This document shows positions 45,801 to 64,000 of a DNA stretch of 64,000 bases, in pieces. Below the pieces are notes generated by a model. The model saw only the letters and a list, made by a program, of their open reading frames with translations, was not told where the DNA came from and did not search any database. A program made the translations under genes and the position numbers. This DNA comes from Mumia flava (GTDB lineage: Bacteria > Actinomycetota > Actinomycetes > Propionibacteriales > Nocardioidaceae), in assembly GCF_002797495.1 (NCBI RefSeq), contig NZ_PGEZ01000002.1, forward strand, positions 744,001 through 808,000, read 5' to 3'. Every line of letters starts with the position of its first letter. Position 1 is the first letter of the stretch.

Positions 45801-46694
45801 TCACGAACCCGGCGACGCGACCTCCGCGGGATCGCCGACGGCTCCGCACACGATCGACCGCGCCACGAAGGGTCGTCCGCGGGCGCGCCACTCCCGGGGG
45901 TAGCCCAGGGACACCTCTTCGACGGCCACACCGTCGTAGACCGAAGACCGCGGCATGTGCAGGTGCCCGTGGACGATGGTGTGGATGGGGAAACGCTGGT
46001 GCCAGTCAGAGGTGAGGCGGGTTCCGCACCACATCGGGAGGTGGGGCGAGAACATCCGGCGCGCCGGCTCCTCGATGAGGGGGTAGTGGCCGACCACGAC
46101 CAGCCGTACGCCCGGGCCGACCTCGGCCAGCCGCTTCTCCGTCAGCTCGACACGAGCGCGGCACCACGCCTGACGTGTCGGGTAGGGGTCGGGGTGCAGC
46201 AGGAGCTCGTCGGTGAAGACGTGCCCCGCGTCCCACGCCGCGCGGAGCGCGGTGTCCAGATCGACCGCAGGGTCCCGGAAGGAGTAGTCGTACAGCAGGT
46301 GGACCGGGGCGACCACGAGATCGTGCGCCGGGCCCCGCCACGTCGCGTACTCGTCCTCGGGCGTCAGCACATCGATCGCCCGGCACCTGCGCACGAGGCT
46401 CTCGTAGCGCGCCACCCCACGACTCTGGTCCTCGTCGTGCGGATGCGTCCAGAGCTCATGGTTGCCAGGAGCCCAGATCACCCGGTCGAACCGTCGACGG
46501 AGACCTGCCAGCACCTCCTGGGTGCGTGACGGCGACTCGGACACGTCACCGGCCACGAGCAGCCAGTCGCCCGGGTGCTGCGCTCTCAGCGAGTCGACGA
46601 CGCGCTGGTTCGCCTCGTGCCCGACGTGCAGGTCGCTCACCGCCCACACGTGGGGATGAGTCGGGTCGAGACAGCCCTCACGTGGATCGCTCAC
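45801..46694 (-). CDS. Calcineurin-like metallophosphoesterase
   Basis: 297-aa enzyme. The metal-binding signature is complete: AVSDLHVGHE, LLVAGDVSES, IWAPGNHELW, VVVGHYP and IVHGHLHMP. No signal peptide. Substrate unknown; the family includes DNA, nucleotide and phospholipid hydrolases. The GTG start has an excellent ribosome site, GGAGGGAG, at 6 nt. It follows the glycosylase gene on the same strand with a 64-bp gap and may be co-transcribed with it, which would fit a repair role, but that is only suggestive. Confidence 0.88.
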   Translation of the reverse strand: MSDPREGCLDPTHPHVWAVSDLHVGHEANQRVVDSLRAQHPGDWLLVAGDVSESPSRTQEVLAGLRRRFDRVIWAPGNHELWTHPHDEDQSRGVARYESLVRRCRAIDVLTPEDEYATWRGPAHDLVVAPVHLLYDYSFRDPAVDLDTALRAAWDAGHVFTDELLLHPDPYPTRQAWCRARVELTEKRLAEVGPGVRLVVVGHYPLIEEPARRMFSPHLPMWCGTRLTSDWHQRFPIHTIVHGHLHMPRSSVYDGVAVEEVSLGYPREWRARGRPFVARSIVCGAVGDPAEVASPGS

Positions 46695-46758
46695 GTGTCT
46701 CCCTCCGTCGTCGTCCGTGCCGTCGTCGTCCGTGCCGCAGCCGACGGCACGGGATGGC

Positions 46759-47859
46759 TCAGGACCGTACGACGGGCAGCGCCAGCCACGCCCCCAGCGC
46801 GTCGACCTCCGCATCGACCGCCGCCGCCATCGCGTCGGTGAACGCCTCGTCCTCGTGCACAGCGTTGACACGCAACACCCCTGCCTTCTGGTCCGCGACC
46901 GCGTCGAGCTTCCCGACCAGGCGGTCGTCGAACAGGATCGGGAGGGCGAAGTAGCCCCACCGACGCTTCGCGGCGGGCTTGTACATCTCGAGGCCGTACT
47001 CGAAGTCGAACAGCTCGGTAGCCCGCTTGCGGTCGTGGATCAGCCGGTCGAACGGTGACAGCAGAGCGGCGCGCCCCTCGAACGAGCGCCCGAGATAGAC
47101 CGGGTCGACGCGCCACTCGCCCTTGACCCCCTCCACGACGGCTGCCTCGCCTGCCTCACCGACGTCGTAGGGCTCGACCGGCACCTTCGTCGACTTGGTG
47201 CGCGCGATCCCCAGGGAACGCAGCCGCCGCTCGTTGCGCGAGCGCGCCGCCTCCTCCTCGGCCGGGATGGGATCGTCCGGATACACCCGGCCGGCCAGGT
47301 CCCACAGCCGATCGCGGCCCCGCCGGCCCGCGATCGCCACCTCCCCCAGCTCCGCCATGATCCCGAGCAGGCGGATGACGTTCTGGTCGTTCGTCCAGCC
47401 GGTGGACTTCCACGGAACGACGCAGGTGTCCGGGATGTCGCGTGACGGCAGCGGGCCGTTCGTCGCCAGTCGCTCGAGGATGTCCTGCCGGCATGCGTCG
47501 TTGGCGTGGAGCCAGGCGCGGAACCGCTTCTCCCAGTCGGCGACGGGCGGCCGGTCACGCAAGCACAGCATCTCGGCCCGGTACAGGGCCACGTCCTCCG
47601 CGGGGCGGATCGTCGACCCGACCTCGATGAGCTCGCGGTCGTCCAGGGCCCGGAGCAGGTCTTGTGGCGAGTACGCGCTCCCGAGCCTGCTCCAGGACAC
47701 GAGATCAGCCGACGGGGCGATGGCCGAGGTCGGGTCCAGCTGAAGGAGGGTCAGGTGGCGAACCATGTCGACCAGCTCGGACGGTCGTTCGCGCTGCAGG
47801 AGCTGCGCGCAGATCGCAATCTGCTGCGCATCCGCACGGCTGAGCTTGTGAACGCTCAT
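46759..47859 (-). CDS. HTH_42-fold DNA glycosylase, AlkX/YcaQ type
   Basis: 366-aa protein of the winged-helix DNA-binding family (AlkZ/YcaQ, PF06224). Residues 40-42 read QLD; the QxD triad marks the E. coli YcaQ (AlkX) subgroup that unhooks interstrand crosslinks, while QxQ marks the AlkZ self-resistance subgroup. Other blocks are SWSRLGSAY, the central RLWDLAGRVYP winged-helix part, LLSPFDRLIHDRKRATELFDFEY, and KRRWGYFALPILFDDRLVGKLDA. A GGGAG ribosome site precedes the ATG. It is divergent from the biosynthetic operon, so a protective role for the producer is possible but the QLD type fits general repair better. Confidence 0.85.
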   Translation of the reverse strand: MSVHKLSRADAQQIAICAQLLQRERPSELVDMVRHLTLLQLDPTSAIAPSADLVSWSRLGSAYSPQDLLRALDDRELIEVGSTIRPAEDVALYRAEMLCLRDRPPVADWEKRFRAWLHANDACRQDILERLATNGPLPSRDIPDTCVVPWKSTGWTNDQNVIRLLGIMAELGEVAIAGRRGRDRLWDLAGRVYPDDPIPAEEEAARSRNERRLRSLGIARTKSTKVPVEPYDVGEAGEAAVVEGVKGEWRVDPVYLGRSFEGRAALLSPFDRLIHDRKRATELFDFEYGLEMYKPAAKRRWGYFALPILFDDRLVGKLDAVADQKAGVLRVNAVHEDEAFTDAMAAAVDAEVDALGAWLALPVVRS

Positions 47860-48091: not shown

Positions 48092-49237
48092 ATGCGCACC
48101 GAGGCACTCGAGCGGGTCACGGTCGACCTTCTCGAGGAGCTCGGTGTCGCCGCGCCCGTCTACCGGCTGGGTGAGCTGGAGCGTCACCACGTACTCGAGC
48201 GCCGCCGCGGGTCCCTCGTCTCCTACGTCGTGGCACGCGACGCGACCGACGGCGCCGTCGGTCTGCTGCCCGTCTACCGGTCGCCGCGACCGTTCGAGCC
48301 CTCGCTGGATCCGGACGCCCTCTTCCCCGGCACCGGTGCCGGAGCGGACGCGACGAGCTCCCCGTTCTCCACGTTGTGCTCGGCCGGCGGCGCCGGGGGC
48401 TACGCGAACCACCTGATGCTCAGGGCAGGGCTCGCGGCCCCTCGCACCGCCCTGGCCGCGCACGCGTTGATCGACGCCGCCCGCGACATCGCCGCGGCAG
48501 CCGGCTGTGCCCGCCTCCTGGTCCCCGACCTCGACCGGACGCAGGCGCGCTGGCTCGCGGAGATCGAGGCCGAGGCGACGGCCGCGTCCACACGGGAGAA
48601 GGCCGTCCTGCCGATCGACTGGAACGACTTCGCCGGCTATCTCGCCGCCCTCCCCCGCAAGCGCAGGTGGCAGGTCCGCCAGGAGCGCCTCGCCTTCGCC
48701 GAGGGCGGCACCGAGGTCCGCGACGAACCGCTGGCGGCGGTGGCGGTCACGCTCGCCCCGCTGCTGGCGCAGACCCAGCGGCGCCACGGCGAGGCCGTGG
48801 ACCCGGCCGCCGCGGAGTTCTACCTCACCATGCTCGCGATGACACCGGGCGCCGTGACGCGCGCACTGGTCGGCTACCGGAAGGGTGAGCCCGTGGCGTT
48901 CTCCGCCGTGGTCCGCTGCGCCGACACCTGGACGGTGCGTGCGGTCGGGCGCGACTACGCCGCTCCGGACCACGCAGAGTACTTCAACCTGACGTACTAC
49001 GAGCCCATCGCGCGCGCGGCCGCCTCGGGCGCCCGCGCGATCGACTTCGGCGTCGGATCGCTGGCGGCGAAGCGGTTCCGCGGATGCCGCCTGCAACCTC
49101 TACGGTCGTTGCTCATCCGCTCCGCGTCGCACAGGCAGCGGAAGTCGCCGCTTTCGGCGACACGACCAACGCTCGGCCGCGCCGTAGCGTCCGAGTCCTC
49201 GCAGGTCGCCGACCGAGGAGGCATCAATGGACCTTGA
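48092..49237 (+). CDS. GNAT/FemAB-like protein at head of biosynthetic operon
   Basis: 381-aa protein of the FemAB-like/peptidogalycan biosynthesis (DUF482-type) GNAT superfamily. Key parts: LDWNDFAGYLAALPRKRRWQVRQE-like block near residues 185-205 (IDWNDFAGYLAALPRKRRWQ), and the C-terminal YYEPIARAAASGARAIDFG and GSLAAKRFRGCRLQPLRS typical of the family. These proteins transfer acyl or aminoacyl groups, some from aminoacyl-tRNA. It overlaps the PKS gene by 11 nt and so belongs to the operon. The C-terminal 25 residues beyond the core are Ser/Arg-rich and may only be a run-on into the PKS ribosome site. Confidence 0.75.
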   Translation: MRTEALERVTVDLLEELGVAAPVYRLGELERHHVLERRRGSLVSYVVARDATDGAVGLLPVYRSPRPFEPSLDPDALFPGTGAGADATSSPFSTLCSAGGAGGYANHLMLRAGLAAPRTALAAHALIDAARDIAAAAGCARLLVPDLDRTQARWLAEIEAEATAASTREKAVLPIDWNDFAGYLAALPRKRRWQVRQERLAFAEGGTEVRDEPLAAVAVTLAPLLAQTQRRHGEAVDPAAAEFYLTMLAMTPGAVTRALVGYRKGEPVAFSAVVRCADTWTVRAVGRDYAAPDHAEYFNLTYYEPIARAAASGARAIDFGVGSLAAKRFRGCRLQPLRSLLIRSASHRQRKSPLSATRPTLGRAVASESSQVADRGGINGP

Positions 49238-52200
49238 CGATGCGATCGCGGTGGTCGGAGTCGCGGCGAACGTCCCCGGCGCGTCCGACGTCGACGCGTT
49301 CTGGATGAACCTCGCGCGCGGCGTGGAGTCCGTGACGGTGCTGAGCGACGAGCAGCTGCGAGACCACGGCGTCCCGGAGGAACGGCTGGCGGACCCGGCG
49401 TACGTGAAGGCGGCCGCCATGGTGGAGGACGCCGCGGGGTTCGATGCGGACCTGTTCGGCATGACGGCTCGCGAGGCACAGGCGTGCGACCCCCAGATCC
49501 GGCTGTTCCTCGAGGCCGCCCACGCGGCGATCGAGAGCGCCGGCTACGACCCGACGACGATCAGCGCCGGCACCGGCGTCTTCGCGTCCTCCGGCGCGCC
49601 GCTGTACCACGAGCACCACCTCCGGCCCCAGGCGGACGCGGCAGGCTTCCCGCTCTCGGGTCTGGTGACGCTCAACCACGGCGGCTACATCGCCACGATG
49701 GCCTCGTACACCCTCGACCTGCACGGCCCCAGCGTGACCGTGCAGACCGCGTGCTCGAGCACCCTCGTCGCGGTGCACCTGGCCTGCCAGTCGCTGCGGA
49801 CCGGTGACTGCGACACCGCGATCGTCGGCGGAGCCAGCATCGACTTCCCCCTCGGCCACGGCTACCTCTGGTCCGACGGGGGGGTCCAGTCGCGCAGCGG
49901 ACACTGCCGCCCGTTCGACGCCGACGCCGACGGCACCGTGTTCGGTGCAGGGGCGTGCGCCGTGGTGCTGAAGCCGCTGGCCGACGCGCTCGCGGACCAC
50001 GACCACGTGCGTGCCGTGATCCGCGGCAGCGCGGTCAACAACGACGGCGCCGACAAGGTGAGCTTCGGTGCCCCGAGCGCCGCAGCCCAGCGCGCCGTCG
50101 TCATGGAGGCGCTGTCGGTCGCCGACGTGGATCCGGGCGAGATCTCTTACGTCGAGACCCACGGCACGGGGACGGTCGTCGGCGACCCGATCGAGGTCCG
50201 CGCGCTGGCCGATGCCTTCACCGGTCTCGCGGACGAGCCGCTTCCCGCCGGCAACTGTGCGATCGGGTCGGTCAAGGGCAACATCGGGCACCTGGGCCCG
50301 GTCGCCGGGCTGGCCGGCTTCATCAAGACCGTGCTCGCGCTGGAGCACGAACAGCTGCCGGCGAGCATCAACGTCCGCGCCCCCAACCCGCGGCTGGACC
50401 TGCCGTCCACCCCGTTCCGGATCCAGGACCGCCTCGCCACCTGGGCGCGAGACCCGCAACGGCCACGGCGCGCGGCCGTGACCTCGACGGGGATCGGCGG
50501 CGCGAACGCCCACGTCGTGCTGGAGGAAGCGCCGCCGCGGGCCACGTCCCGTCACGAGGAGGAGCCCCGCCTGGTGGTGTGGTCGGGTCCGACCCTCGAC
50601 GCCGAGCGCGAGGTGCGCGCCGAGCTCGCCGAGTCGTTCGTCCAGCAGGGCGAGGCGACGTTCGCCGACGCGGTGGCCACCCTGCAGCACGGCCGCCAGA
50701 CCCACTCGGTCCGGGCGGCCGCGGTGTGCACCAGCGCCCACGACGGTGCCGCAACCCTGAGGGAGGACGACGGCGAGAGGATCGTCGTCTCGCGACAGCC
50801 GGTGACCGACGCGCCATCGGTCTGTCTGCTGTTTCCCGGCCAGGGCTCCCAGCAGGTGACGATGGCCCGGGGCCTCTACCGCCGGGTGCCGGTGTTCGCA
50901 CACGCCCTCGACGAGTGGTTGGAGCGGCTCGACTCGCCCGACCTGCGGCTCCGGGAGTGCTGGCTCGGGAACGCCGGGCTCGACATCACCGACACCGCCC
51001 GCGCCCAACCGCTGCTGTTCGCCGTCGAGCTCGCCCTGGCGCACCTGTGGCAACGGGCGGGCGTCCGCCCTGCCGCGCTGCTCGGGCACAGCCTCGGCGA
51101 GCTGTCCGCCGCGACCGTCGCGGGGATCTTCGAGCCCGACGACGCCGCCTCCGTCGTCCTCGCCCGCGGGGCCGCGATGCGCGACCACGCGGCGGGCGGC
51201 GGCATGCTGGCCGCCGCTGTCGGTGCCGATGCCGTGGACGACCTCCTCGCCGGCACGGTCACGGTCGCCGTGATCAACCGGGACGACCAGGTCGTGCTGT
51301 CGGGGTCCGACGACGATCTCGCCGACGTGGCCGCCGAGCTCACCGATCGCGGCGTCGCGTGCACGCGGCTGCCCACCTCCGGGGCGTTCCACACCCCCTT
51401 GCTCCGCGACGCCGCTGTCGCGTTCGGGAAGGCCTTCGACGGCGTGTCCCTCGCTCCCCCGTCGCTACCCGTCTACTCGGCCGCCAGCGGCCGGCTGATC
51501 TCGGCGGAGGAGGCCGTCGAGCCGGCCTTCTGGCTCGACCAGCTCACCGAGCCCGTGCGGTTCGCCACCGCGTTCGACGCACTCGTGGAGACGCCGCCCG
51601 GCGTCCTGCTGGAGGTCGGCCCCGGACAGGTGCTCACCGACCTCGCCCGCCGCCACCCACACGTGCGCGACGGCTCGGTCGACGTCGTGCCGACGCTGCC
51701 GCGCCGGAGCGGGACCGCCGCCGGCGACCCGGACGAGGACGTGGTGGCGGCGCTGGCCGCCGCGGCACGACTCTGGACGGCCGGGACCGACCTCTCGTGG
51801 GAGGCGCTGGGGCAGTCGCCGCTGCGGCACCGGGTCCCGCTCCCGGGATACCCGTACCAGCGCGCGCGCCACTGGGTCGACGCGCCGGCGGCCCCGGCGA
51901 CCCCGTCGACCGCCGCCCCCGTCGTACAGGCGCCCGCTCCCGCGCCCCGTCCCGCGGCCGCCGCCGAGCCCGCCACCCCGTTCTCGATGATCTCGTGGCT
52001 GCCGTCGGCCGGCGGCCCGCCGCACCTCACCCGCGCCGGCACGACGGCCGTCGTCTTCCTCCCGGCGGACGACGTTCGCGCCGACGACGTGCTGGCGGCG
52101 CTGGAGCGTGCCGAGGTGCGCACGGTCCCGGTCCGCGCGACGCCCTCCTCCGGGCAGGAGGGGCCCGACCTCGTCGCCCGGCCCGGCAACGCGGCCGACG

Positions 52201-54644
52201 TCCGGCGCGTGTTCGACGAGCTGGCCGACCGCGGCACGGACGTCGACCTGATCGTGCACGCCACCGCTGCCGCCCCCTGGTCGCCCGCCTCCACGGCCAC
52301 CGTCGACGAGCAGCTCGAGGCGAGCTTCTTCGACGTGCTCGCGGTGGTCCAGCACGGGCTGCGCACCGGCGCGACGGGCCGCGCGCCGGAGCTCGTCGCA
52401 CTCACGTCGGGCGCAGTCGACGTGTCCGGCGCCGAGGCCGTCGACCCCGTGAAGGCGAGCATCCACGGCCTGGTCCGGACCCTGGCCGCCGAGCTGCCGT
52501 GGCAGCGGTGCAAGGTCGTCGACGTCTCTGCGACGACTCCCGTCGACGAGCTGCGTGAGGAGCTCTGCCGCACCGACGAGCACGGCGTCGTCGCACTGCG
52601 CGGGCGGCACCGCTGGGTGCCGGTGGAGACACCGCTGCAGGTCGCACCGAGCCGTCCGTCGATCCTGCGCTCGGGCGGCGTGTACGTCCTCACGGGCGGG
52701 ATGGGCGGCCTCGGCCTCACGATCGCGAGAGGGCTGGCGGCCACCGGGACCCGCCCGAGGATCGCGCTGCTCGGCCGCCGCGTCCCCCCGGACGGCGAGC
52801 CCGTCGACACGTGGTCCGCCGAGGTCGCGGACGCCGTCACGGAGGCCACCTCGCGGGGTGCGGAGGTCCGGCTCCTCTCCTGCGACGTCGGCGATCCGCG
52901 CGATGTGCGCCGCGCCCTCGACGTCGTCGCCGCCACCCTCGGGCCGGTCCGGGGTCTCCTCCATCTCGCCGGGGTCGCGGGCGACGGGATCCTCCAGGTC
53001 CGCGACCCGCAGCGAGCCGCGGAGGTGCTGCGCCCGAAGGTGCGCGGCACCTTCGCCCTCGCCGAGGCGCTCGCGGACCGGGCCCCGCTCGACTGGGTCG
53101 CGCTGTTCTCCAGCCGCGCGGCCGTCGACGGGCTCGTCGGGAGCGGCGACTACGCCGCCGCGAACGCCGTCCTGGAACGGTGCGCGAGCGTCGACCTGTT
53201 CCCCGCCGAGCGGGTGCTGAGCATCGGCTACCCGAGCTGGACGACCGTCGGCATGGCGAGCCGTCCCGGGGGCGCGTCGGGCGTCGGCGAGCTCCGCCGG
53301 ACCACCCGCCTCGCCGCGGAGGACACGTGGGCGCTCGACGAGCACCGGCTCGACGGCACCCCCGTCCTTCCAGGCACGGCCACCCTCGACCTCGTCGTGC
53401 GCGCCGCCGCGCAGACCCTGCCCTCGGACGACGACCAGGCGCTGGTGCTGTCCGACGTGGCCTTCGTCGCGCCCCTGGTCGCACGCCAGGCGCGACGCGT
53501 CGACGTCGTCCTCGTCGCCGAGGACGGCCGTCATCGCTTCGAGGTGCGCTCCCAGCCCGAGCACGACACGACGGCACCGTGGGTCACGCATGCCACGGGC
53601 GGGGTCGGGCGGCGGGCCGCGGAGCCGGCGACGTGCGACCTCGCAGCGCTGCGGGAGGCGACCCGGCCGGTGACGGAGCCCGGCCCCGGGAGGTTCTCGC
53701 TCGGCCCGCGGTGGGACTCGGTCCACGAGGTCCGCGACGGCGAGCACGAGCGGCTCGTCGGCCTGCGGCTCTCAGCACCCTTCGCCGCCGACCTCGACGC
53801 GCACCCGCTTCACCCGGCCCTGCTCGACCTGGCCACCTCCGCCGCGCGCGGCTGCCCCGGCCCGGGCCCGGCCGACGACCCCGACGAGCCGTACGTGCCG
53901 TTCCACTACCGCTCGCTCACGGTCTTCGCGCCGCTGCAGGCCGAGGTCGTCGCCCACGTCCGCAGCCAGGGCGTCCGCCCCGGGCACCTGGTGGCAGACG
54001 TCGACGTGTTCGGGACCGACGGCCGCATCCTGGTCGCCGTCGAGGGCTTCACGATGCGGCGGGTCGACCGGGACGCCTTCGCCGACGGCCTCGACGCGAC
54101 GTCGGCCGACTCCCCCGAGCCCGTCGGGATCGACCCCGAGGTCGGGATCGACATGCTGATGACCCTGCTGGCGTCGCGGACGCCGGAGAACGTGATCGTC
54201 CGCCCGCACCGCGGCGGCCGACCCGTCCCGCTGAGCGGGTCGGAGTCACCGGCGGCGCCCGCCGTCCCGCGCCCCGTCACTCCGCCGGCGCCTGCGGTGC
54301 CCGCGGCCCCGGCCGCCGACGCTCCTGCCGTCACGGCCCCCGCCGCCTCGCCACCCGCCGCCGCGCCACCCGCCGCTGCGCCACCCGCCTCCACGCCTCC
54401 CGCCGCCGAGCCCGCGCGCTCGACGTCGGATCGCCTGCGCGAGCTGTGGGCGCACACCCTGGGCAACGACCGGATCGAGCTCGACGACGACTTCTTCGAC
54501 CTCGGCGGGAACTCGCTCACCGCGATCGAGCTGATGTCGCAGATCCGGGAGCGGTTCGAGGTCGAGCTGAGCGTCGGGTTCCTCTTCGAGGCCCCCACCC
54601 TCGCCGAGCTCAGCGACGTGATCGACGAGCGGCTGCGACGATGA
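49227..54644 (+). CDS. Type I polyketide synthase, KS-AT-KR-DH-ACP
   Basis: 1805-aa multidomain enzyme. KS (about 5-430): Cys176 in TACSST, His312 in HGTGT, His355 in GNIGH, all present. AT (about 535-830): Ser622 in GHSLGE; the specificity motif is GAFH (His722), which suggests malonyl-CoA. A pseudo-Rossmann structural region (about 915-1140) precedes KR (about 1150-1345; TGGMGGLG, Tyr1309, Asn1313). A DH-like double hotdog (about 1360-1620) follows, with His1373 in HRLDGTPVLP and Asp1534 in HPALLD. After a long Pro/Ala linker comes the ACP with Ser1763 in GGNSL. Order KR before DH is unusual for modular PKS. No TE. ATG has GAGGAGG upstream. Confidence 0.93.
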   Translation: MDLDDAIAVVGVAANVPGASDVDAFWMNLARGVESVTVLSDEQLRDHGVPEERLADPAYVKAAAMVEDAAGFDADLFGMTAREAQACDPQIRLFLEAAHAAIESAGYDPTTISAGTGVFASSGAPLYHEHHLRPQADAAGFPLSGLVTLNHGGYIATMASYTLDLHGPSVTVQTACSSTLVAVHLACQSLRTGDCDTAIVGGASIDFPLGHGYLWSDGGVQSRSGHCRPFDADADGTVFGAGACAVVLKPLADALADHDHVRAVIRGSAVNNDGADKVSFGAPSAAAQRAVVMEALSVADVDPGEISYVETHGTGTVVGDPIEVRALADAFTGLADEPLPAGNCAIGSVKGNIGHLGPVAGLAGFIKTVLALEHEQLPASINVRAPNPRLDLPSTPFRIQDRLATWARDPQRPRRAAVTSTGIGGANAHVVLEEAPPRATSRHEEEPRLVVWSGPTLDAEREVRAELAESFVQQGEATFADAVATLQHGRQTHSVRAAAVCTSAHDGAATLREDDGERIVVSRQPVTDAPSVCLLFPGQGSQQVTMARGLYRRVPVFAHALDEWLERLDSPDLRLRECWLGNAGLDITDTARAQPLLFAVELALAHLWQRAGVRPAALLGHSLGELSAATVAGIFEPDDAASVVLARGAAMRDHAAGGGMLAAAVGADAVDDLLAGTVTVAVINRDDQVVLSGSDDDLADVAAELTDRGVACTRLPTSGAFHTPLLRDAAVAFGKAFDGVSLAPPSLPVYSAASGRLISAEEAVEPAFWLDQLTEPVRFATAFDALVETPPGVLLEVGPGQVLTDLARRHPHVRDGSVDVVPTLPRRSGTAAGDPDEDVVAALAAAARLWTAGTDLSWEALGQSPLRHRVPLPGYPYQRARHWVDAPAAPATPSTAAPVVQAPAPAPRPAAAAEPATPFSMISWLPSAGGPPHLTRAGTTAVVFLPADDVRADDVLAALERAEVRTVPVRATPSSGQEGPDLVARPGNAADVRRVFDELADRGTDVDLIVHATAAAPWSPASTATVDEQLEASFFDVLAVVQHGLRTGATGRAPELVALTSGAVDVSGAEAVDPVKASIHGLVRTLAAELPWQRCKVVDVSATTPVDELREELCRTDEHGVVALRGRHRWVPVETPLQVAPSRPSILRSGGVYVLTGGMGGLGLTIARGLAATGTRPRIALLGRRVPPDGEPVDTWSAEVADAVTEATSRGAEVRLLSCDVGDPRDVRRALDVVAATLGPVRGLLHLAGVAGDGILQVRDPQRAAEVLRPKVRGTFALAEALADRAPLDWVALFSSRAAVDGLVGSGDYAAANAVLERCASVDLFPAERVLSIGYPSWTTVGMASRPGGASGVGELRRTTRLAAEDTWALDEHRLDGTPVLPGTATLDLVVRAAAQTLPSDDDQALVLSDVAFVAPLVARQARRVDVVLVAEDGRHRFEVRSQPEHDTTAPWVTHATGGVGRRAAEPATCDLAALREATRPVTEPGPGRFSLGPRWDSVHEVRDGEHERLVGLRLSAPFAADLDAHPLHPALLDLATSAARGCPGPGPADDPDEPYVPFHYRSLTVFAPLQAEVVAHVRSQGVRPGHLVADVDVFGTDGRILVAVEGFTMRRVDRDAFADGLDATSADSPEPVGIDPEVGIDMLMTLLASRTPENVIVRPHRGGRPVPLSGSESPAAPAVPRPVTPPAPAVPAAPAADAPAVTAPAASPPAAAPPAAAPPASTPPAAEPARSTSDRLRELWAHTLGNDRIELDDDFFDLGGNSLTAIELMSQIRERFEVELSVGFLFEAPTLAELSDVIDERLRR

Positions 54645-56938
54645 CGGCCGCAGCGCAAGCGTTCGCCCTCGACGGCCCGTCCTCCGACGCCGAGCCCGGC
54701 CACCGGATCGCGCTGCGCGACGGCTGGTCGCTGTGGCGGCTCGCCGCGCTGCGCAGCGCGGGCATGCCGATGGCGTGGCTCGAGGCGTTCGCCGTGCCCG
54801 ACGCCGCGGACGACGAGTCGGACCTGCGCAGTCGGGAGACCTCGGCGGCGGCGGTGCGTCACGTCGTCGGGCAGCCGGCGTTCGTCGAGGCCGTCACCTG
54901 GCAGAACCCCGCCCTGGTGCGGAACTGGCTGGGCCGCTTCGCCGCGGACCTCGCCGCCGGTGGGGACGGCCGCCTCTCACGCCGCGACCAGCGCGAGGCG
55001 CTCGTCGCCTTCCTCGCCCAGCGTTACTGCGCGAAGAACGAGACCATCGGGTTCTTCGGGCCGGTCGCATGGGCGCGGTTCGGCGAGGACCACGAGGACG
55101 TCCGCACCAGCGGCACCGCCCGGCTCCGGAGCCGCACCCTGTTCCGGGAGCAGTGGGCCGTCGACGCGATCGCCCGCACGTTCGCGGCCCGGCCGGAGCT
55201 GCGTCCGCACCTGGTCGCGCGACGCCACCCGGCGTGCTCCTTCGACGGCGGTGTGCTTCGCCGACCGCGCCGCCGTCCGCAGCCCCTGGACGCCGACGAG
55301 GCCGTGGTCGCGGCCGCCCTCGCCCGGCCCCGCCAGGTCGGCGAGCTCCTGACGGCCTGCGGGACGCCCGAGGCGCTGGACCGGCTCGTGACGGCGGGAG
55401 CCGTCCTGGTCGGGCTGCCGATCCCGGTCACCGACCGGCCGGAGGACGTGCTGCGCGGCCACGTCGCACGGATCGACGACGACAGGCTCCGCGCCGGCCT
55501 GGCGGCGGAGCTCGACCGCATCGACGACGCGGCCGCCGTGGTCGCGGCCTCGGCGGGCGACCCGGTCGCGCTGCGCGACGCCCTCGAGCGTCTGGGGGAG
55601 GAGTTCCGGTCGCTGACCGGCGTCGGCGACCAGCGCGCCAAGACCGATCGCGACCTCGGACGCTGCATCGTCTACGAGGACTGCCGGCGCGACCTCGACG
55701 TCGACATCGGCGCCGACCTGGTCGACGACCTGCGCGCGCCGCTCGCGCTCCTGCTGGACACGGCGCGCTGGCTCGTCGCCGAGACCGGAGCGGAGGTGGA
55801 GCGGGACCTCGCCGCCCGCGAGGCGTCGCTGAGGGAGGCCTCCGGACGACCGGTGGCCCTGTGCGACCTGGTGATGGCGTCCGGCGACGTCCTCGGCGGG
55901 CTGCCCGGCACCGCCGTCTCGCGGGTGGCCGCCGACTTCCGGGCCCGCTGGGCCGAGCTGCTCGCGACGGCAACCGATGCGTCCCGGCTCACGACCGCGA
56001 GGCTGACGCCGCTGGTGCGGCTCCTGTTCCCCTCCGGCCCGGTGCGGTGGCGGGCGGCCCGCCAGCACAGCCCGGACATGATGCTGCGCGAACGCCCCGG
56101 CGACCGTCCGCAGTGGGTGCTCGGCGAGCTGCACCTCGCCGTGAACACGCTGGAGAATCGCGCCTTCGCCACCCAGGCCGACGACCGCGCCGAGCTGGTC
56201 GCCGCCACCGCGGCCGACTTCCCGGACGGCCGCTTCGTCCCCGTCCTCCCCGCCCGGTCACCGGACGTGACCTCGCGCACCTATCCCCCCCTCGCGCTCG
56301 ACCTGCCCGATCGCTACCGATACTGGTCGTGGACCGACGACGAGGGCCATCCGTCGGGGCGCCCGACGCTCCCCGGTGCCGGCCTGCTCGTGGAGCGCGA
56401 CGGCGACCGGCTCGTGGTGCGCTCCCCCGACGACGGCTGGCACGCCCCGCTGGTCGAGGTGCTCGGAGAGTTCCTCACCGCGCTCGTCGCCGACCGCTTC
56501 AGCCTCCGTGGCCCGGCGCCGCACCACCCGCGCCTGATGCTCGACGACGTGGTCGTCGCGCGCGAGGCCTGGCACCTGCCGGTGACGGAGCTCCCCGATG
56601 CCCCGGGCGACTACCGCCACCGCGCGCTGCGCGCGCGGCTCGGCGAGCTGGGCATGCCGCGCTGGGTCTTCGCCCGGACCCCGGATCAGCCGAAGCCGTA
56701 CCTCGTCGACCGCGACGCGCCGCTGTCGCTGCGCAACCTCGCGCGCGGCCTGCGGCGCAGCGCCGGCTCCGATCCCGACGCCACCATCACGTTCACCGAG
56801 ATGCTCCCCGCGCCCGACGAGCTTTGGATGGCGGGACCCGGCGGCGAGCCCCACACCAGCGAGCTGCGGATCGTCGTGCATGACGACGGGCAGCCCCGCT
56901 CCCCCCTGACGGCCCCCGATCGGACGGAACGCGGATGA
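54641..56938 (+). CDS. Lantibiotic dehydratase-like protein (short LanB, no elimination domain)
   Basis: 765-aa protein matching the LanB N-terminal (glutamylation) domain. Landmarks: QRYCAKNETIGFFGPVAWAR near residue 127, GRCIVYEDCRRDLDVDIG near 340, ELHLAVNTLENR near 495, GMPRWVFARTPDQPKPYLVD near 670-690 and FTEMLPAPDELW near 720. The C-terminal elimination domain of full-length LanB (about 300 residues) is absent. Short LanBs include peptide aminoacyl-tRNA ligases (PEARLs) that add amino acids to a peptide end. The ATG overlaps the PKS stop and the stop overlaps the thioesterase start, placing it inside an assembly-line operon. No precursor peptide gene is seen. Role inferred: tRNA-dependent aminoacylation or dehydration of a carrier-bound chain. 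Confidence 0.85.
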   Translation: MTAAAQAFALDGPSSDAEPGHRIALRDGWSLWRLAALRSAGMPMAWLEAFAVPDAADDESDLRSRETSAAAVRHVVGQPAFVEAVTWQNPALVRNWLGRFAADLAAGGDGRLSRRDQREALVAFLAQRYCAKNETIGFFGPVAWARFGEDHEDVRTSGTARLRSRTLFREQWAVDAIARTFAARPELRPHLVARRHPACSFDGGVLRRPRRRPQPLDADEAVVAAALARPRQVGELLTACGTPEALDRLVTAGAVLVGLPIPVTDRPEDVLRGHVARIDDDRLRAGLAAELDRIDDAAAVVAASAGDPVALRDALERLGEEFRSLTGVGDQRAKTDRDLGRCIVYEDCRRDLDVDIGADLVDDLRAPLALLLDTARWLVAETGAEVERDLAAREASLREASGRPVALCDLVMASGDVLGGLPGTAVSRVAADFRARWAELLATATDASRLTTARLTPLVRLLFPSGPVRWRAARQHSPDMMLRERPGDRPQWVLGELHLAVNTLENRAFATQADDRAELVAATAADFPDGRFVPVLPARSPDVTSRTYPPLALDLPDRYRYWSWTDDEGHPSGRPTLPGAGLLVERDGDRLVVRSPDDGWHAPLVEVLGEFLTALVADRFSLRGPAPHHPRLMLDDVVVAREAWHLPVTELPDAPGDYRHRALRARLGELGMPRWVFARTPDQPKPYLVDRDAPLSLRNLARGLRRSAGSDPDATITFTEMLPAPDELWMAGPGGEPHTSELRIVVHDDGQPRSPLTAPDRTERG

Positions 56939-57732
56939 CCTCCTTCTCCTCGGCGTGGTTCAGCGACGTGCTCAACCCGGACGGGGACGGACCCGTCGTG
57001 GTCGGGCTCCCCTACGCCGGCGGATCGGGCCGCGCGTTCCGGGCGGTGCACCCGTACCTGTCCGACGACAGCGTGCTGGCGCTCGTCGACCTGCCCGGCC
57101 ACGGCACCCGGCTGGCCGAGCCGTGCGTGCGCGACGCGGACGACGTCGTCGTCGAGCTGCTCGGGACGCTCGACGCGCTGCCGACGGAGCGACTCGTGCT
57201 GCTGGGCTACAGCATGGGCGGGTGGCTCGCGTACGACGCGGCTGCGCGGCTCGTCGACGCCGGTGCCCCGCCGCTCGGGCTCGTGGTGTGCGGGAGCCGT
57301 GCGCCGCAGACCGGCCTCGGGCACCCGTCCCTCGCTCGTCACCCCGTCGGGCCCGAGTTCCTCCGCGAGGCGGTGTCGATGGGACTCGCAGCCCCGGAGA
57401 TGATCGAGGTTCCCGGGATGGCCGAGCTCTTCGCGCCGGCGCTGCACGCGGACTTCGCCGTCGTGCAGAGCTTCCGCTACCGATCACGTCCGCCGCTGCC
57501 TGTGCCCGCCTGCGTCATCGGCTTCGACTCCGACTGGCTGGTCCCGGAGCCGTCGCTGCGGGCCTGGGACGACGTCTGCGTGCGCCCGCTGCAGCGCCGC
57601 GTCGTCGGCCCGCACCTCGGGCTGCACGAGGACGAGGCGGCGTTCGGCACCGCGGTGGCGGCCGGGGTGGCGCACGCACGCGACGCCCACGCCCACGCCC
57701 GTACCGCGGCGACGACGGGACTCGTCCGATGA
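56935..57732 (+). CDS. Type II thioesterase
   Basis: 265-aa alpha/beta hydrolase of the GrsT family, which clears misprimed or stalled acyl groups from carrier proteins. N-terminal VVGLPYAGGSGRAFRAVHPYL; nucleophile Ser93 in GYSMGG; catalytic His227 in GPHLGLH. Typical length. No integral TE domain is found in the visible assembly-line genes, so release of the product may fall to this enzyme, to the LanB-like protein, or to the gene beyond the right edge. The ATG overlaps the upstream stop. Confidence 0.92.
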   Translation: MTSFSSAWFSDVLNPDGDGPVVVGLPYAGGSGRAFRAVHPYLSDDSVLALVDLPGHGTRLAEPCVRDADDVVVELLGTLDALPTERLVLLGYSMGGWLAYDAAARLVDAGAPPLGLVVCGSRAPQTGLGHPSLARHPVGPEFLREAVSMGLAAPEMIEVPGMAELFAPALHADFAVVQSFRYRSRPPLPVPACVIGFDSDWLVPEPSLRAWDDVCVRPLQRRVVGPHLGLHEDEAAFGTAVAAGVAHARDAHAHARTAATTGLVR

Positions 57733-59882
57733 CCTCGACCCGCCCTCCCGCGGAGTGGTACGACACCGACCGGGCCTACCCGGACGGGCTCACCGCCGTC
57801 GACCTCGTCGCCCAGGCGGCGCGGCGAGCGCCGGACGCACCAGCCGTGGTCGATGCGCACGGCGTCGTCCACACGCACGGACAGCTGCACGCGCTCGCCA
57901 CCCGGCTCGCGGGGCTCCTCCACGAGCACGGGATCGGCGTCGGCGACAATGTCGCGTTCCTCGGGAGACGCCACGCCGCCTCGCTCGTGGCGATCCTGGG
58001 GGCCGGTCTCGCCGGCGCGGCGTTCGTGCCGATCGGCCACCGGTGGCCGATCGAGCGGATCGTGTACGTGATGCGGGCGACCCGGGCACGCTGCATCGTC
58101 GGTCTCGGCGAGGACGCGCCGCTGCTCGACGAGCTCGCCGCCACCTGTCCCGACCTCACCGACGTCGTGCTCCTCGACGTGGACACCGAGCACCCGTCCA
58201 TGGCGCCCGAGGCGACCGCGCGCACGGACCCGTCCGCCCCGCCGGTCGAGCCGGACGCGCTCGCGGCCGCCGTCCTGGCCGAGCGGCCACGCACCGTGCT
58301 GCAGGTCGGGCTGGGCAGGGGAGAGCTGCTGGAGCGGGTCGGGCCGTACGTCGACCTGTTCACCGCCGTCGAGCCGGATGGCGACGCGGTCGACGCCGCC
58401 GCGCGGTGGGCGAACGAGAACGACGTCTTCGCCGACCTCGTCGTCGGCGGTCCCGAACGCGTCGGCGAGCTGCCGCCCGCCGCCGTCGACGTGGCGGTCC
58501 TGCCCGCGGCTCCGTCGCCGGCACAGCTCGCGGCCGTCGCGGCCGCGGTCCGTCCAGGCGGCGCTGCGATCGTCCCGGGACCGGCCGCGCCGGTGGAGGA
58601 CCGCGTCTGGGCGGCGGCGGCGGCCGCGCCCGACGTCGGCGCGACCGTGCTGCGCCGGACGGACCTCCCGCCCGGCGTCGCGGGCGGCCGCGGACCCCGT
58701 GTGCACACCGGATGGCACCTCGCCCGGCAGCCCGCCGTCGACCCGCCCCGGGCCCTCGCCCCGGGCGACGTCGCGTACGTGATCTTCACCTCCGGCTCCA
58801 CCGGCCGCCCCAAGGGGGTCGCGGTCAGCCACGGCGCGCTGGTGAACACGCTGTGGAGCTGCTCCGAGCTGTTCCCGTTCCGGGCGAGCGACCGGCTGCT
58901 GCAGGTGGTGTCGTTCTGCTTCGACCTCTCGATCTACGACGTCTTCGGCGTGCTGTCGGCCGGCGGAGCCCTGCGCATCGCCGACGAGGACGAGCTCGCC
59001 GAGCCCGCGCTGCTGGCGCGCGTGCTGCTCGAGGAGGGCATCACGTTGTGGAACTCGGCGCCCCCGATGTTCGCCTGGGTGCTCCCCTTCCTCACCGAGG
59101 CCGACGCGCCGCCGGAGCGCAGCTCGTCGCTGCGCCTGATGTTCCTCGCGGGCGACTGGATCCCGCTGTCGATGCCCGACGAGACGCGGGCCGTCTTCCC
59201 CGACCTGAGGATCGTGAACCTCGGCGGCGCGACCGAGACGGCCGTGTGGTCGTGCTGGTACGAGATCGGCAGGGTCGAGGCCGACTGGCCGAGCATCCCG
59301 TACGGGCGACCCCTCGCGAACACCCGCTACTACATCCTCGACGAGCATCGCGAGCCCACGCCGATCGGCGAGGCCGGCCAGATCTACACGGCGGGCACGT
59401 CGCTGGCGCTCGGGTACCACGGCGACCCGGTCCAGACCGCGCAGGTCTTCGTCCCGGACCCGTTCCGGCCCGGGCAGCGCATGTACGCGAGCGGTGACCG
59501 CGGGCGCTGGCTCCCGGACGGGCAGATGCAGCTGCTCGGCCGGATCGACCACCAGGTGAAGGTCCGCGGCTACCGCGTCGAGCTGGGGGAGATCGAGTCC
59601 GTGATGGCCGCGGCGACGAACGTCCGGTCGGCCGCCGTCGTCACCGTCGACCGCGTCGGCAGCCTGGCGCTGGTCGGCTTCTACACCTGCCGCGAGCCGG
59701 GGGTCCCGGTCGAAACGTTGCGCGAGCTGCTCGCAGCGACGCTCCCGGACTACATGGTCCCGACGCATCTCGCGTGCGTGGGCGAGCTGCCGCTCACCAC
59801 GAACGGCAAGGTGGACCGGGCGGCACTGGCCGGGCTCGCGGCCCCGGCGACGGCGGCCAGCGGAAGCGAGGGACGCCGGTGA
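57729..59882 (+). CDS. Stand-alone adenylation enzyme interrupted by a methyltransferase-like insert
   Basis: 717-aa NRPS A domain without a fused carrier. A1/A2 lie in residues 20-110. About residues 185-325 are an insert with methyltransferase-like features: VLQVGLGRGELL (motif I), FTAVEPDGDAVD (motif II), VRPGGAAIVPGPA. A3 is FTSGSTGRPKG near 353, A5 is LGGATE near 498, A7 ASGDRGRW, A8 GRIDHQVKVRGYRVELGEIE, A10 NGKVDR with Lys694. Specificity residues read Asp399, Leu400, Tyr403, Asn442, Phe472, Ala474, Leu498, Val506, Trp507, Lys694; the nearest code I know is cysteine (DLYNLSLIWK). It is coupled to the next gene, whose N-terminal PCP it probably loads. Confidence 0.88.
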   Translation: MTSTRPPAEWYDTDRAYPDGLTAVDLVAQAARRAPDAPAVVDAHGVVHTHGQLHALATRLAGLLHEHGIGVGDNVAFLGRRHAASLVAILGAGLAGAAFVPIGHRWPIERIVYVMRATRARCIVGLGEDAPLLDELAATCPDLTDVVLLDVDTEHPSMAPEATARTDPSAPPVEPDALAAAVLAERPRTVLQVGLGRGELLERVGPYVDLFTAVEPDGDAVDAAARWANENDVFADLVVGGPERVGELPPAAVDVAVLPAAPSPAQLAAVAAAVRPGGAAIVPGPAAPVEDRVWAAAAAAPDVGATVLRRTDLPPGVAGGRGPRVHTGWHLARQPAVDPPRALAPGDVAYVIFTSGSTGRPKGVAVSHGALVNTLWSCSELFPFRASDRLLQVVSFCFDLSIYDVFGVLSAGGALRIADEDELAEPALLARVLLEEGITLWNSAPPMFAWVLPFLTEADAPPERSSSLRLMFLAGDWIPLSMPDETRAVFPDLRIVNLGGATETAVWSCWYEIGRVEADWPSIPYGRPLANTRYYILDEHREPTPIGEAGQIYTAGTSLALGYHGDPVQTAQVFVPDPFRPGQRMYASGDRGRWLPDGQMQLLGRIDHQVKVRGYRVELGEIESVMAAATNVRSAAVVTVDRVGSLALVGFYTCREPGVPVETLRELLAATLPDYMVPTHLACVGELPLTTNGKVDRAALAGLAAPATAASGSEGRR

Positions 59883-62800
59883 CCGACTCCGAGGGCACCC
59901 TGGCCGAGCGCGTGCGGGCCATCTGGACCGACACGCTCGGCGAGACCGACCCGGACGCCCGGTTCCTCAGCGCGGGCGGCCACTCCGTCCTCGCCGCCAA
60001 GCTCATCGCCCGCATCGGCACCGAGCTCGGCGCCACCCTGAGCCTGGCGACCTTCCTCGGCGAGGACCGGTCCGTCGGCGACCTCGTCGACCTGGTCGAG
60101 CGTGCCCGGAGCTCTCCCGCCGCCGACCCGGGTGCGGGTCCCGCGGCCGCGGTCGGTGGCACGGGGACCGACCCGCACGGCGACCCGGCGAGCGGCACGG
60201 GCTCGGCGCCGATCTCGCCGGCGATGCGGCGGATCTGGACGTGGCACCGGATCCACCCCGACTCCCCCGCCTACAACGTGGTCCGCGTGCTCGAGGTCGA
60301 CGGTCGGGTGCAGCCCGCCCCCCTGCGCTCCGCCCTGGCCGACCTCGCCGACCGGCACGAGGCCCTGCGCTGCCACGTCGACGAGCCGTCTCCCGCGCAG
60401 CCCGAGGTGGTCGTCGCCGCGCCGGCGCCGGTGCCGCTCACGATCGAGGTCGTCCGGGGCGAGTCGGACGCCGACGTCGACGCCCAGGTCGGGGCCGCCC
60501 TGCGCCGGGTGGCCGAGCAGCCGATCCCGATGGACGCCGCGCCGCTGTGGCGCTGCGGGCTGGTCTGGTCGCCGAGCACCGGGCGCTCGTGGATCGCCGT
60601 GGTGATGCACCACCTGATCAGCGACCTGCGGGCGTCGGACATCGTGCTCGACGACCTCGCCACCGCGTACGCGGCGCGCCGCACGGGGTCCGCGCCGGAC
60701 CTGCCGGGCTCGGCCGGTCTCCTCGACCACCTCCGCCATCAGGCCACGATCCCCGGCTCCCCGCGCTGGCACACCGACCTCGACTGGTGGCGCGGCCGAC
60801 TCGAGGGCCGGTCCCGCACGATGGTGTCGCCGACGGCGGCGAGCGACGACGAGCACCGCGCCGGCACCGTCTCCGTCGACCTGCCGCCCCACGTCGGTCA
60901 CGCGGTCGACGCGATGCTGCGCACCGCTGGGATCACGCCGGCCGTGCTCTTCCTGACCCTCGCCACCGCGGTCCTCTCCGCACGCTCCGGCGGCGAGGCG
61001 GGCGTGATCGGCGTCCCCAGCGCGCGCGCCGCGCGGCCCGCCGACGAGCGGACCGTCACCTTCCTGCTCGACACGCTGCTGCTCACGACCGGCGATCCCG
61101 GCGCCGACGAGCGCACCGTCCTCCAGGCGTGCGCCGCCACGCGGCTGGCCCTCCTCGACGCCGTCGACCACGCGAGCCCCACCTACGACGAGATCCTCGG
61201 CCGGCTGCAGCTGCCGCGCAGCGGCCGCAGCCCGCTGATCCGCCTGTGGTTCAACGACCTCACCGGCGCCGCCCCGCCGGCGCGCTTCGGCGAGCACCCG
61301 AGCGTCGAGCACGACCTCGCGCCCGGCTGGGCGCTCTTTGACCTCGGCGTGTACGTCGTGCGCCCCCCGACGGGCTACCGCCTGCACGTCGTCGCCCCGC
61401 AAGCCTCGGCGCCCGACGACGTCGCCGCGTTCGCCGAGCAGCTGCTGCAGGTGTGCTCGGCCGCCGCGGCCGATCCGCACCGCCGGCTCGCCGACCTCGT
61501 TCCAGCGCGGACGGGGGCGCCCGAGGACGGCTCGCCCCGCACGACGCCCGGCCCCGGGGAGGTCGCGTCGACGGTGGAGGCCCTCGCCGGTGCGGCCGCC
61601 GAGCACCCCGCCGCCGCGGCCCTCGTCACAGCCGACGGCGTCGTCGACCGCCGCACGCTCGACGACGCCGTGACCGACCGCGCCGACCGGCTGCGCGCCG
61701 CGGTCGCACCCGGCGTCCTCGTCGCCCTCCCCGCCCGCCGCGACCGGCTCTACCTCGAGCGGCTGCTCGCATGCATGCGCGCCGGCGCCGTCCCGGTCCT
61801 GATCGACGCCGCGTGGCCGCGAGCCCGCCGGGACGCGGCGATCCGGAGCAGCGGCGCCACCTATGCGTTCCCCGACGACGACGGGCCCCTGCGGACCCTC
61901 ACCGAGGGCGCGACGAAGCCGGCTGTCGCGACCGAGCCCGCGCACGTCCTGTTCACCTCCGGCACGACCGCCGACCCGCTGCCCGTGCTGGTGCCGACGG
62001 CGGTCACCGACGCCGCCGTCGCCGACCTGGCCGCCTGGCTCGAGGTCGGCGCCCACGACCGGATCGCGCTGCTCAGCGGACCCGCCCACGACCCTGCCCT
62101 CCGCGACCTCGGCCTCGCGCTGCGCACGGGAGCCAGCCTGCACGTGCCCGCACCGACCGAGCAGGCCGACGTCACCCGGCTCGCGCACTGGCTGCGCACG
62201 GAGCGCGTCAGCGTCCTCAGCTCGACCCCGACGCTGCTCACGCTCGTCCTCGGCGCCGACCCCGGCGCGCAGCCCCTGCCCGACCTGCGGGTCGTGGTCT
62301 GCGGCGGCGCCCCGCTCACCAGCGCGACGGCGGCACTGATCCGGTCGCGGGCACCGGGTGCGGTGATCGTCAACGGCTACGGGTGCGTCGAGACCCCGCA
62401 GCTGGTGGTCGCGCACCGGCTCGAGCCCGACGACCTCGTCCCCACGTCGCCGCACGTGCCGCTCGGACGTCCGCTTCCGGGTCGACGGATCGAGCTCCTC
62501 ACCGCCGACGGGCAGCCGTGCGCCGACGGGGAACGGGGCGAGATCTGGGTCGGCGCGCCATGGATCGCGTCGCGCTACCTCACCGACGGTCCCGCCCGGT
62601 TCGTCGCCGAGCCCGATCGGCTCGTGCGCACCGGCGATCTCGCCCACCGCGACCGGGCCGGGCTGCTCCACCTCGTCGGACGAGCCGACCGGCAGGTCCT
62701 CGTCAACTCCTACCGCGTGCTCCTCGACGAGGTCGAGGCCGCTGCGCGCGGGTGCAACGGGGTCGCCGATGCCGTCGCCGAGCTGGTCGGCAACGAGCAC

Positions 62801-63397: not shown

Positions 63398-64000
63398 TCA
63401 GGGGTGGTGCGCGGCCTGCGACTCCAGGACGCTCAAGAGTGCCTCGACGTCGTCGGCACGCGCCTGCTGCGCCTGCCGGACGGCGATCCGCTGCGCGAGC
63501 ATCTCGACGGTCGCCGACGCGAAGATGTCCCGCAGCGCGAGGTCGACGTGGACGGTCTCGCGGATCCGGATGTTCAGCTGCGTCGCGAGCAGGGAGAAGC
63601 CGCCCAGCTCGAAGAAGCTGTCGTGGATGCCGACCCGGTCCACGCCGAGGAGGCCCGCGAGGATCTCGACGAGCTGCTCCTCCAGCGGCGTCCGCGGGGG
63701 CGCGTAGCGGTCGGCGGTCGCGCTCGGCTCCGGCCGCGGGAGCGCCGCCAGGTCGTACCGGCCGGCGGGAGTCAGCGGCAGCCGCTCGAGCACGACGAGC
63801 TGCGTCGGCAGCAGCGCGTCCACCAGCCGTGCCGCGAGTTGCGGCTGAGCCGCCGCGGGGTCGAAGTCGGCGCCGGCGGTGGCGACGTAGGCGACGAGCT
63901 CGGTGCCGCCCTCGTCGTCCGGCAGCTCCACGACCAGCGCGTCGACGACGTCGGGCAGCTCGCGCAGCGCGCCCACGGTCTGCAGGGTGGCGGCGCCCGG
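63398..64000 (-). CDS. NRPS C-terminal part (A-domain end plus PCP), runs off the right edge
   Basis: The frame is open to the window edge, so only the last 200 codons are seen. First comes the end of an adenylation domain (LRELPDVVDALVVELPDD, then LERLPLTPAGRYDLAAL, which corresponds to A10 with the catalytic Lys position reading Arg). Then a PCP with Ser in FFELGGFSLLATQL and a short tail. No C-terminal TE follows the PCP. It converges with the operon; the two stop codons are only 12 bp apart. This gene shows that the cluster extends beyond the window. Confidence 0.88.
   Translation of the reverse strand, partial: PGAATLQTVGALRELPDVVDALVVELPDDEGGTELVAYVATAGADFDPAAAQPQLAARLVDALLPTQLVVLERLPLTPAGRYDLAALPRPEPSATADRYAPPRTPLEEQLVEILAGLLGVDRVGIHDSFFELGGFSLLATQLNIRIRETVHVDLALRDIFASATVEMLAQRIAVRQAQQARADDVEALLSVLESQAAHHP

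Follow-up and report, generated by a model that had tools for sequence, protein, structure and literature searches.

In our study, the gene at positions 54641..56938 (plus strand) of a 64,000-nucleotide stretch of Mumia flava DNA, hereafter the window, was found to encode a probable PEARL-type ligase, that is, a LanB-fold protein carrying the glutamylation domain only. This enzyme is likely to link an amino acid from aminoacyl-tRNA to a small-molecule intermediate, through its free carboxylate, in a hybrid nonribosomal peptide synthetase (NRPS) and polyketide synthase (PKS) pathway. The protein has the LanB fold, keeps the ATP-site residues and belongs to a conserved cluster, and neither an elimination partner nor a precursor gene was found for it. 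Positions above 64000 lie past the end of the window and are given in its numbering.

The ligase gene and its product

The open reading frame begins with ATG, encodes 765 amino acids and has a third-position G+C of 0.91-0.96 (300-base windows, starts 54641 to 56641). The initial annotation had described a LanB-like gene joined by four-base overlaps to a PKS and a thioesterase gene, and both junctions were confirmed: ATGA at 54641-54644 forms the PKS stop and the ligase start, and ATGA at 56935-56938 forms the ligase stop and the thioesterase start. The sole Pfam match of the protein is PF04738 (Lant_dehydr_N, 68 bits against a cut-off of 28), and the elimination domain PF14028 was not found in it by Pfam. 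The AlphaFold2 model, obtained with 16 sequences, has a pLDDT of 84.1 and a pTM of 0.84. A fold search of the PDB with this model gave 11 matches at E<=0.001, every one of them of LanB fold (MibB, TbtB, MadB, NisB, GodF) with TM values by query length of 0.51-0.67, so that the structural comparison with LanBs suggested earlier bears out the family. The sequence profile of the protein family also picks up TbtB and GodF. In the same profile a weak match to a PqqD-like ribosomally synthesized and post-translationally modified peptide (RiPP) recognition element is seen at positions 198-259 (E 0.003), which may possibly be a vestigial peptide-recognition domain. With regard to class I LanB membership, the glutamylation domain and LanB fold are present, and the elimination domain and a precursor gene were not found.

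ATP-site residues

Phosphorylation of the carboxylate by PEARLs has been tied to the ATP-grasp-like residues Asp558, Glu575, His577, Glu813 and Arg815 of BhaBC-Trp (PMC11962472, PMC12945691). In the 765-residue protein, D479, E496 and H498 (spacing 17 and 2) together with E741 and R743 (spacing 2) match the spacing inside these two motifs, and R38, R128, K132, R641, F677 and K685 are the other residues of interest. Their conservation was examined in 53 non-duplicate LanB-type proteins; of 56 matched, two under 640 amino acids were excluded and two duplicates were dropped. L093 is the same as L054. The loci used for this test, the tree, the neighbour count and the ureido scan were hand-chosen from search matches and are not random; they comprise 20 + 20 regions, 4 of 15 plasmid records and the loci of Streptomyces HmicA12 and NBC_01306. 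A protein was taken to have no elimination partner when none was detected in the fetched stretch by a profile made from four known partners.

All five ATP-site positions are kept in 48 of the 49 proteins without an elimination partner, including that of the window, and in none of the four split LanBs (L049, L050, L052 and L053). D479, H498, E741 and R743 are kept in 49/49, and the E496 position is occupied by Glu in 45 proteins, Asp in three and Arg in one (L104). Like the ligase, split LanBs (TbtB and GodF as well as these four loci) have the LanB fold and no fused elimination domain, and the four loci keep R128, K132, R641, K685 and E741. Unlike the ligase, they have an adjacent PF14028 gene and lack D479, E496 and R743 (0/4 each), with H498 in 1/4 and E741 in 4/4. 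R128 is kept in 53/53 proteins, R641 and E741 are common to both groups and K685 is nearly so (Lys or Arg); these common residues would fit a shared binding of tRNA or adenosine. Because the five positions are kept where there is no elimination partner and not in split LanBs, the protein is probably a PEARL-type ligase, and ATP-dependent ligation appears much likelier than glutamylation. The earlier description of a PEARL-like protein missing its elimination domain is thus in agreement with both the Pfam result and the residues.

Search for an elimination partner and a precursor peptide

Only one PF04738 gene, with two matched stretches, is present in the genome of M. flava, and this is the 765-residue ligase. 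PF14028 gave no match in this genome, in a search in which no control genome was scored; the PF14028 model does score the partner genes of L049, L050, L052 and L053. For a precursor, 74 open segments of at least 20 residues in cluster gaps of more than 60 bases were set against the loci of HmicA12 and NBC_01306. Alignments were obtained for several of them, in some cases in multiple frames, as expected of conserved DNA at gene ends, and the match at 87690-87785 resembles the N terminus of the thioesterase next to it. MbtH is the one small gene recognised among the segments; further short matches at 46650, 66695, 93105 and 98689 were not inspected singly. No precursor or scaffold peptide gene was recognised in the cluster gaps above 60 bases, in or beyond the window, frames within called genes and the rest of the genome being unsearched. 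This is in line with the initial annotation, which had seen no precursor gene in the operon. Scaffold-peptide PEARLs were also sought on plasmids, where three records were obtained, none covering 80%.

Family tree and gene neighbourhoods

In the IQ-TREE analysis of the 53 proteins, the root of which is arbitrary, the window protein and those of HmicA12 and NBC_01306 form one branch (support 100/100) with a stem of about 1.0 changes per column. This branch lies inside a clade of 39 rows (100/99), apart from the split LanBs and from two loci with four LanB-type genes each (L104, L105). The three proteins form a deep lineage of their own among the proteins compared, SnaE (discussed below) not being one of these. 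A close orthologue was found in 1/392 Streptomyces genomes (HmicA12), and some match in 63/392.

The neighbourhood survey proposed by the initial annotation associated the clade with assembly lines. An adenylation (A)-domain-like neighbour occurs in the fetched stretch at 28 of the 32 other clade loci, as compared with 0/8 loci outside the clade (BLAST against the window's own domains, E<=1e-6; L044 and L048, having no full-length tree row, and the query locus L006 excluded). The four clade loci without such a neighbour are L036, which has poor gene calls, L046, L057 and L096, a contig of 6.7 kb. Four actinomycete loci (L041, L042, L043 and L106) resemble the window in having a KS-AT-KR-DH-ACP PKS, a PEARL-type gene and an NRPS with adenylation, thiolation (T) and condensation (C) domains in the order A-T-C. 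In L041-L043 the PEARL-type gene is directly preceded by a weakly matching thioesterase-like gene (28-31%), which passes E 1e-6 in L043 only. On the other hand, the proteins of the four loci are 33-35% identical to the window protein, form a separate branch (96/95) and have another gene order; L041-L043 carry an extra KS and L041 a DUF6002 gene, unlike the window.

Other arrangements were also observed. In L106 two PEARL-type genes flank an NRPS-PKS pair. In L040, L055 and L091, PEARL-type genes occur as tandem pairs that enclose a stand-alone A domain and a small carrier protein, and in L055, on plasmid pSALBX2, a pyridoxal phosphate (PLP) enzyme gene is enclosed as well. No neighbours with NRPS or PKS domains were found at L104 and L105, which resemble the ammosamide-type PEARL clusters described in papers.

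Comparison with SnaE

The initial annotation had regarded a LanB-fold enzyme in an assembly line as a new bridge to RiPP chemistry. Such a bridge has already been reported: Yu and van der Donk (2024) described SnaE, annotated as a lantibiotic dehydratase, as necessary for the amide in an NRPS-PKS pathway, and its inactivation abolishes the threonine amide of threopeptin in Stackebrandtia nassauensis (PMC11212132). The carboxylate to which SnaE adds Thr becomes exposed through the action of a ureido-forming C domain with the signature EHHXXHDG; the use of ATP and Thr-tRNA by SnaE was proposed there from homology, and about 2,000 NRPS/PKS clusters with annotated lantibiotic dehydratases were noted in the same paper (PMC11212132). 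In our literature search, SnaE was the only assembly-line LanB-fold enzyme found with a reported function.

The SnaE system is like the window in having a PEARL-type enzyme in an NRPS-PKS cluster with no precursor or elimination gene, and the sna cluster shares an A-T-C-A-T line, a KS-AT PKS, a stand-alone thioesterase and MbtH. The window differs in that its PKS has KR and DH domains, in its additional genes (a FAAL-like starter, VioC/VioD-type genes, a FemAB-like protein, P450s and an AlkZ-like glycosylase) and in the absence of the ureido-forming C-domain signature. No EHHXXHDG was detected on the window's contig, over 136 kb, or at the two Streptomyces loci, over 97 kb and 95 kb. As the signature is absent, the acceptor carboxylate must arise here otherwise than by the SnaE route. 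Among 16 hand-chosen, extended PEARL-type loci scanned over 31-60 kb, two (L038 and L092) had the signature; it was present in 0/19 loci scanned over 6.7-26 kb, where a distant ureido domain could escape. Within this sample, the ureido route therefore seems to explain a minority of the PEARL-type assembly-line clusters.

Proposed function and its alternatives

According to the proposed mechanism, the PEARL-type enzyme would use ATP to phosphorylate a pathway intermediate at a free carboxylate. The acyl phosphate would be attacked by the amino group of an aminoacyl-tRNA, after which cleavage of the tRNA would leave one additional, amide-linked amino acid. The substrate would be a small-molecule intermediate of the 54-kb hybrid NRPS-PKS pathway and not a ribosomal peptide, and no dehydration would be involved. 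ATP and tRNA use, amide formation, the nature and timing of the acceptor and the identity of the amino acid are what we infer here. Judged by gene order, the free carboxylate would most probably come from hydrolysis of the carrier-bound chain by the neighbouring thioesterase. The released acid is our first-choice acceptor because the ligase gene shares four bases with the PKS gene on one side and with the thioesterase gene on the other. Alternatively, the peptide part may offer a terminal or side-chain carboxylate. Direct action on a carrier thioester, as initially envisaged, is unsupported, and the kept ATP-site residues point to ATP activation of a free carboxylate. As gene order is maintained in two Streptomyces genomes, with the ligase 77-78% identical, the gene arrangement is not due to chance. 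A more specific version can be speculated, though only tentatively, in which PKS, ligase and thioesterase form a tRNA-dependent off-loading unit: the thioesterase would free an enoyl polyketide-peptide acid, the ligase would cap it at once without ureido reversal, and the product would be DNA-reactive. As only 2/16 of the hand-chosen extended loci carry the ureido signature, an acceptor supply of this second kind may be more frequent than the ureido route.

Several observations weigh against the proposed ligation. Ureido chain reversal, the source of the free carboxylate for SnaE, has no signature here, and the cluster has other thioesterases (66886, 86173, 87015 and the thioesterase end of 77471), the link to the adjacent one being positional only. 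The window lineage falls outside a well-supported group of 34 rows (98/97), around which four rows, outside it or at its edge, are long-branched, and its nearest kin are not settled by the tree. The residue match was made through published numbering and spacing, with no aligned BhaB, TglB or SnaE sequence. Arg208 of BhaBC-Trp, which binds the CCA end, is described as completely conserved in characterised PEARLs (PMC11962472, PMC12945691), and its counterpart by spacing, no reference sequence being aligned, is probably K132, i.e. Lys for Arg. Y129 and K132 do lie as far apart as Tyr205 and Arg208; K132 is common to the split LanBs (4/4). For Gln201 and Arg197 no residue was matched by spacing.

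Among the other explanations, a classical PEARL would attach the amino acid to a scaffold peptide that is made ribosomally from a gene elsewhere and is then modified and released to the assembly line (pearlin logic). The RiPP-scaffold PEARLs known from papers (TglB, BhaBC, AmmB) share with the window the LanB glutamylation-type protein and the ATP-site residues, the weak PqqD-like stretch is as expected of a RiPP recognition element, and the 3-thiaglutamate and ammosamide pathways are precedents (PMC11962472, PMC12945691). This explanation is nevertheless unlikely, because in contrast to those systems no scaffold peptide was recognised in the cluster, where MbtH was the only small gene recovered from the gaps, and the scaffold-peptide-like loci with four LanB genes are placed elsewhere in the tree. 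A further difference from those systems is the Lys where Arg208 probably falls. Other chemistry by a PEARL relative, such as transfer of the glycyl-tRNA nitrogen to a ring (ammosamide-type) or use of a non-tRNA amine, would suit the long stem of the deep branch, and PEARL homologues attaching Gly to indole have been described (PMC12945691); as nothing else points to such a step and all five ATP-site positions are kept, it is also improbable.

The chemistry of SnaE in full detail, with chain reversal by a ureido-forming C domain and capping of the amino-acid carboxylate so exposed, might be expected from a gene set so near to sna (split A plus T-C-A-T, KS-AT PKS, stand-alone thioesterase, MbtH and PEARL-type gene), but the C domain reads MHHLISDL and the scans gave no ureido signature, which makes it very improbable. 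We give least credence to the glutamylating half of a split LanB acting on Ser or Thr of a carrier-bound peptide, with elimination by another enzyme. The LanB fold, the nearest solved structures, the profile matches to TbtB and GodF and the shared K132, R641, K685 and E741 are all compatible with it, yet D479, E496 and R743 are present instead of the split-LanB state, PF14028 was not found in the genome by the search described, and the protein is placed away from the split LanBs in the tree. An ordinary split LanB with its partner was rejected by the genome PF14028 search, the locus survey and the residue test. The two findings named initially as able to overturn the annotation, a precursor gene nearby and a split-LanB partner, were made neither in the cluster gaps nor, by the PF14028 search described, in the genome. 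Ligation to a free carboxylate is kept as the preferred function.

Organisation of the operon

The operon comprises, in order, a FemAB/GNAT-like gene, the PKS, the ligase, the thioesterase, an A domain with an insertion and an NRPS of T-C-A-T type. The FemAB/GNAT-like protein at its head (48092..49237, plus strand; PF13480 and PF04339 above cut-off) is possibly a second aminoacyl-tRNA-dependent transferase in the same pathway; its structure model was poor (pLDDT 56.1) and too weak for a fold search. The type I PKS (49227..54644, plus strand), recognised by Pfam, motifs and 70-71% identity to the two Streptomyces proteins, has the order KS-AT-KR-DH-ACP with the KS Cys, AT GHSLG, KR Tyr, DH H...G....P and ACP Ser all present. 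The thioesterase (56935..57732, plus strand; PF00975) has a GYSMG motif and is fused to the following A domain in both Streptomyces orthologues. That A domain (57729..59882, plus strand; PF00501) lacks a T domain of its own and is interrupted between core motifs A2 and A3 by an insertion of about 170 amino acids with weak methyltransferase similarity (PF08241, E 0.049, below cut-off). In the T-C-A-T NRPS (59879..63385, plus strand), identified by domain search and motifs, the C motif MHHLISDL and the unusual A3 motif FTSGTTADPLPV are off consensus and kept in both Streptomyces orthologues. The AlkZ-like (HTH_42) DNA glycosylase gene (46759..47859, minus strand; PF06224, 148.8 bits; motif QLD) and a metallophosphoesterase gene at the left end of the island (45801..46649, minus strand; PF00149 on the longer frame 45801-46871, orthologues of 75-77%) are transcribed divergently from the operon.

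The biosynthetic island

The cluster runs on past the window to about 99742. Orthologous loci with the same order around the ligase are found in HmicA12 and NBC_01306, and all called genes from 45801 to 98688 have orthologues in both (61-92%, the thioesterase within its fusion to the A domain); the regulator at 99125 has one in NBC_01306 only. Genes beyond the conserved block on either side have no orthologues in the two Streptomyces loci. A cluster end at 63385, suggested by flanks of 10 kb, was rejected as wider flanks share genes to 98688. The genes from 63398 to 98688 are common to the Streptomyces loci in a differing order. The block has been rearranged, since the AlkZ-like and phosphoesterase genes lie mid-block in Streptomyces and at the block edge in the window genome. 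In five of five same-genus genomes the matches to the two flanks end only 25-89 positions apart, and because the flanks nearly join in this way, the region from about 45.73 to 100.48 kb is a strain island, cleanly bounded at 45735-100487 (54.7 kb). The island gene at 99753-100490 has no Streptomyces counterpart.

Next to the operon, an NRPS of T-C-A*-T type (63398-66694, minus strand; its 3' part, 63398..64000, inside the window) was recognised by domain search and orthologues, its A domain being under its cut-off. It is followed by a thioesterase (66886) and an A-T-C protein (67665-71057), the label 'FAAL-like' for which is our reading of its AMP-binding and DIP2-like domains. Then come a Zn-dehydrogenase (71087), a VioD capreomycidine synthase (72183; TIGR03947, 523 bits, cut-off 391), a MupA/Atu3671 luciferase-like monooxygenase (73307; TIGR04020, above cut-off), MbtH (74340-74558), a major facilitator superfamily protein (74692) and a P450 (76206). 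The second half holds NRPSs of C-A-T-TE (77471-81484) and C-A-T-C type (81488-86176, domain order predicted), two thioesterases (86173 and 87015), a P450 (87786), an A-T protein (89041), a branched-chain aminotransferase (90896), an MppP-like PLP enzyme (92010, below cut-off), a VioC arginine hydroxylase (93297; TIGR03946, 503 bits, cut-off 419; also above the GntD cut-off), an aminotransferase (94316; GntC-like, below the cut-off for GntC), an M28 peptidase (95717), a dienelactone-hydrolase-like protein (98122) and a LuxR-type regulator (99125). From this gene content, the product is expected to be an acylated nonribosomal peptide-polyketide with a cyclic arginine-derived residue. VioC/VioD genes were mined in the paper on cyclofaulknamycin, in the main text of which neither 'HmicA12' nor any 'lanti...' word occurs (PMC8399532). 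No report of the cluster or its product was found among the papers listed in our literature search, in which subscription journals were thinly covered.

The AlkZ-like gene and self-resistance

The AlkZ-like gene sits inside the conserved cluster in both Streptomyces, and its presence hints at a DNA-reactive or DNA-damaging product, a reading that its motif (see below) limits to moderate confidence at best. It is possibly a self-resistance gene. Of 38 other genomes, 17 carry a close relative (52-67%), in two cases a fragment, and at the six sites inspected (L108-L113) no phosphoesterase or cluster gene adjoins it. In five same-genus genomes no close relative was found (best 32-35%). A QPhiD motif marks the YcaQ-like class, and (Q/H)PhiQ the AlkZ-like class enriched in biosynthetic gene clusters (PMC9040887). 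The QLD of this gene fits the former and not the enriched class, which counts against dedicated self-resistance. A chance neighbour was weighed and set aside, the gene being inside the island in both Streptomyces and without a close same-genus relative. An AlkZ-like gene (17222) was also seen about 6 kb from the PEARL-type gene in L089, a PEARL-type NRPS locus.

Significance

Amidation of this kind is already known from SnaE (PMC11212132); new here are the residue rule, the deep lineage, the island and the lack of the ureido signature. The residue rule, which separates PEARL-type proteins from split LanBs in our sample, could help to re-annotate 'lantibiotic dehydratases'. Alongside the ligase, the island encodes an AlkZ-like glycosylase and enzymes for a cyclic residue derived from arginine. 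As an independent, sharply bounded and conserved cluster outside the published ureido explanation, it could show which other carboxylates are used by PEARL-type enzymes.

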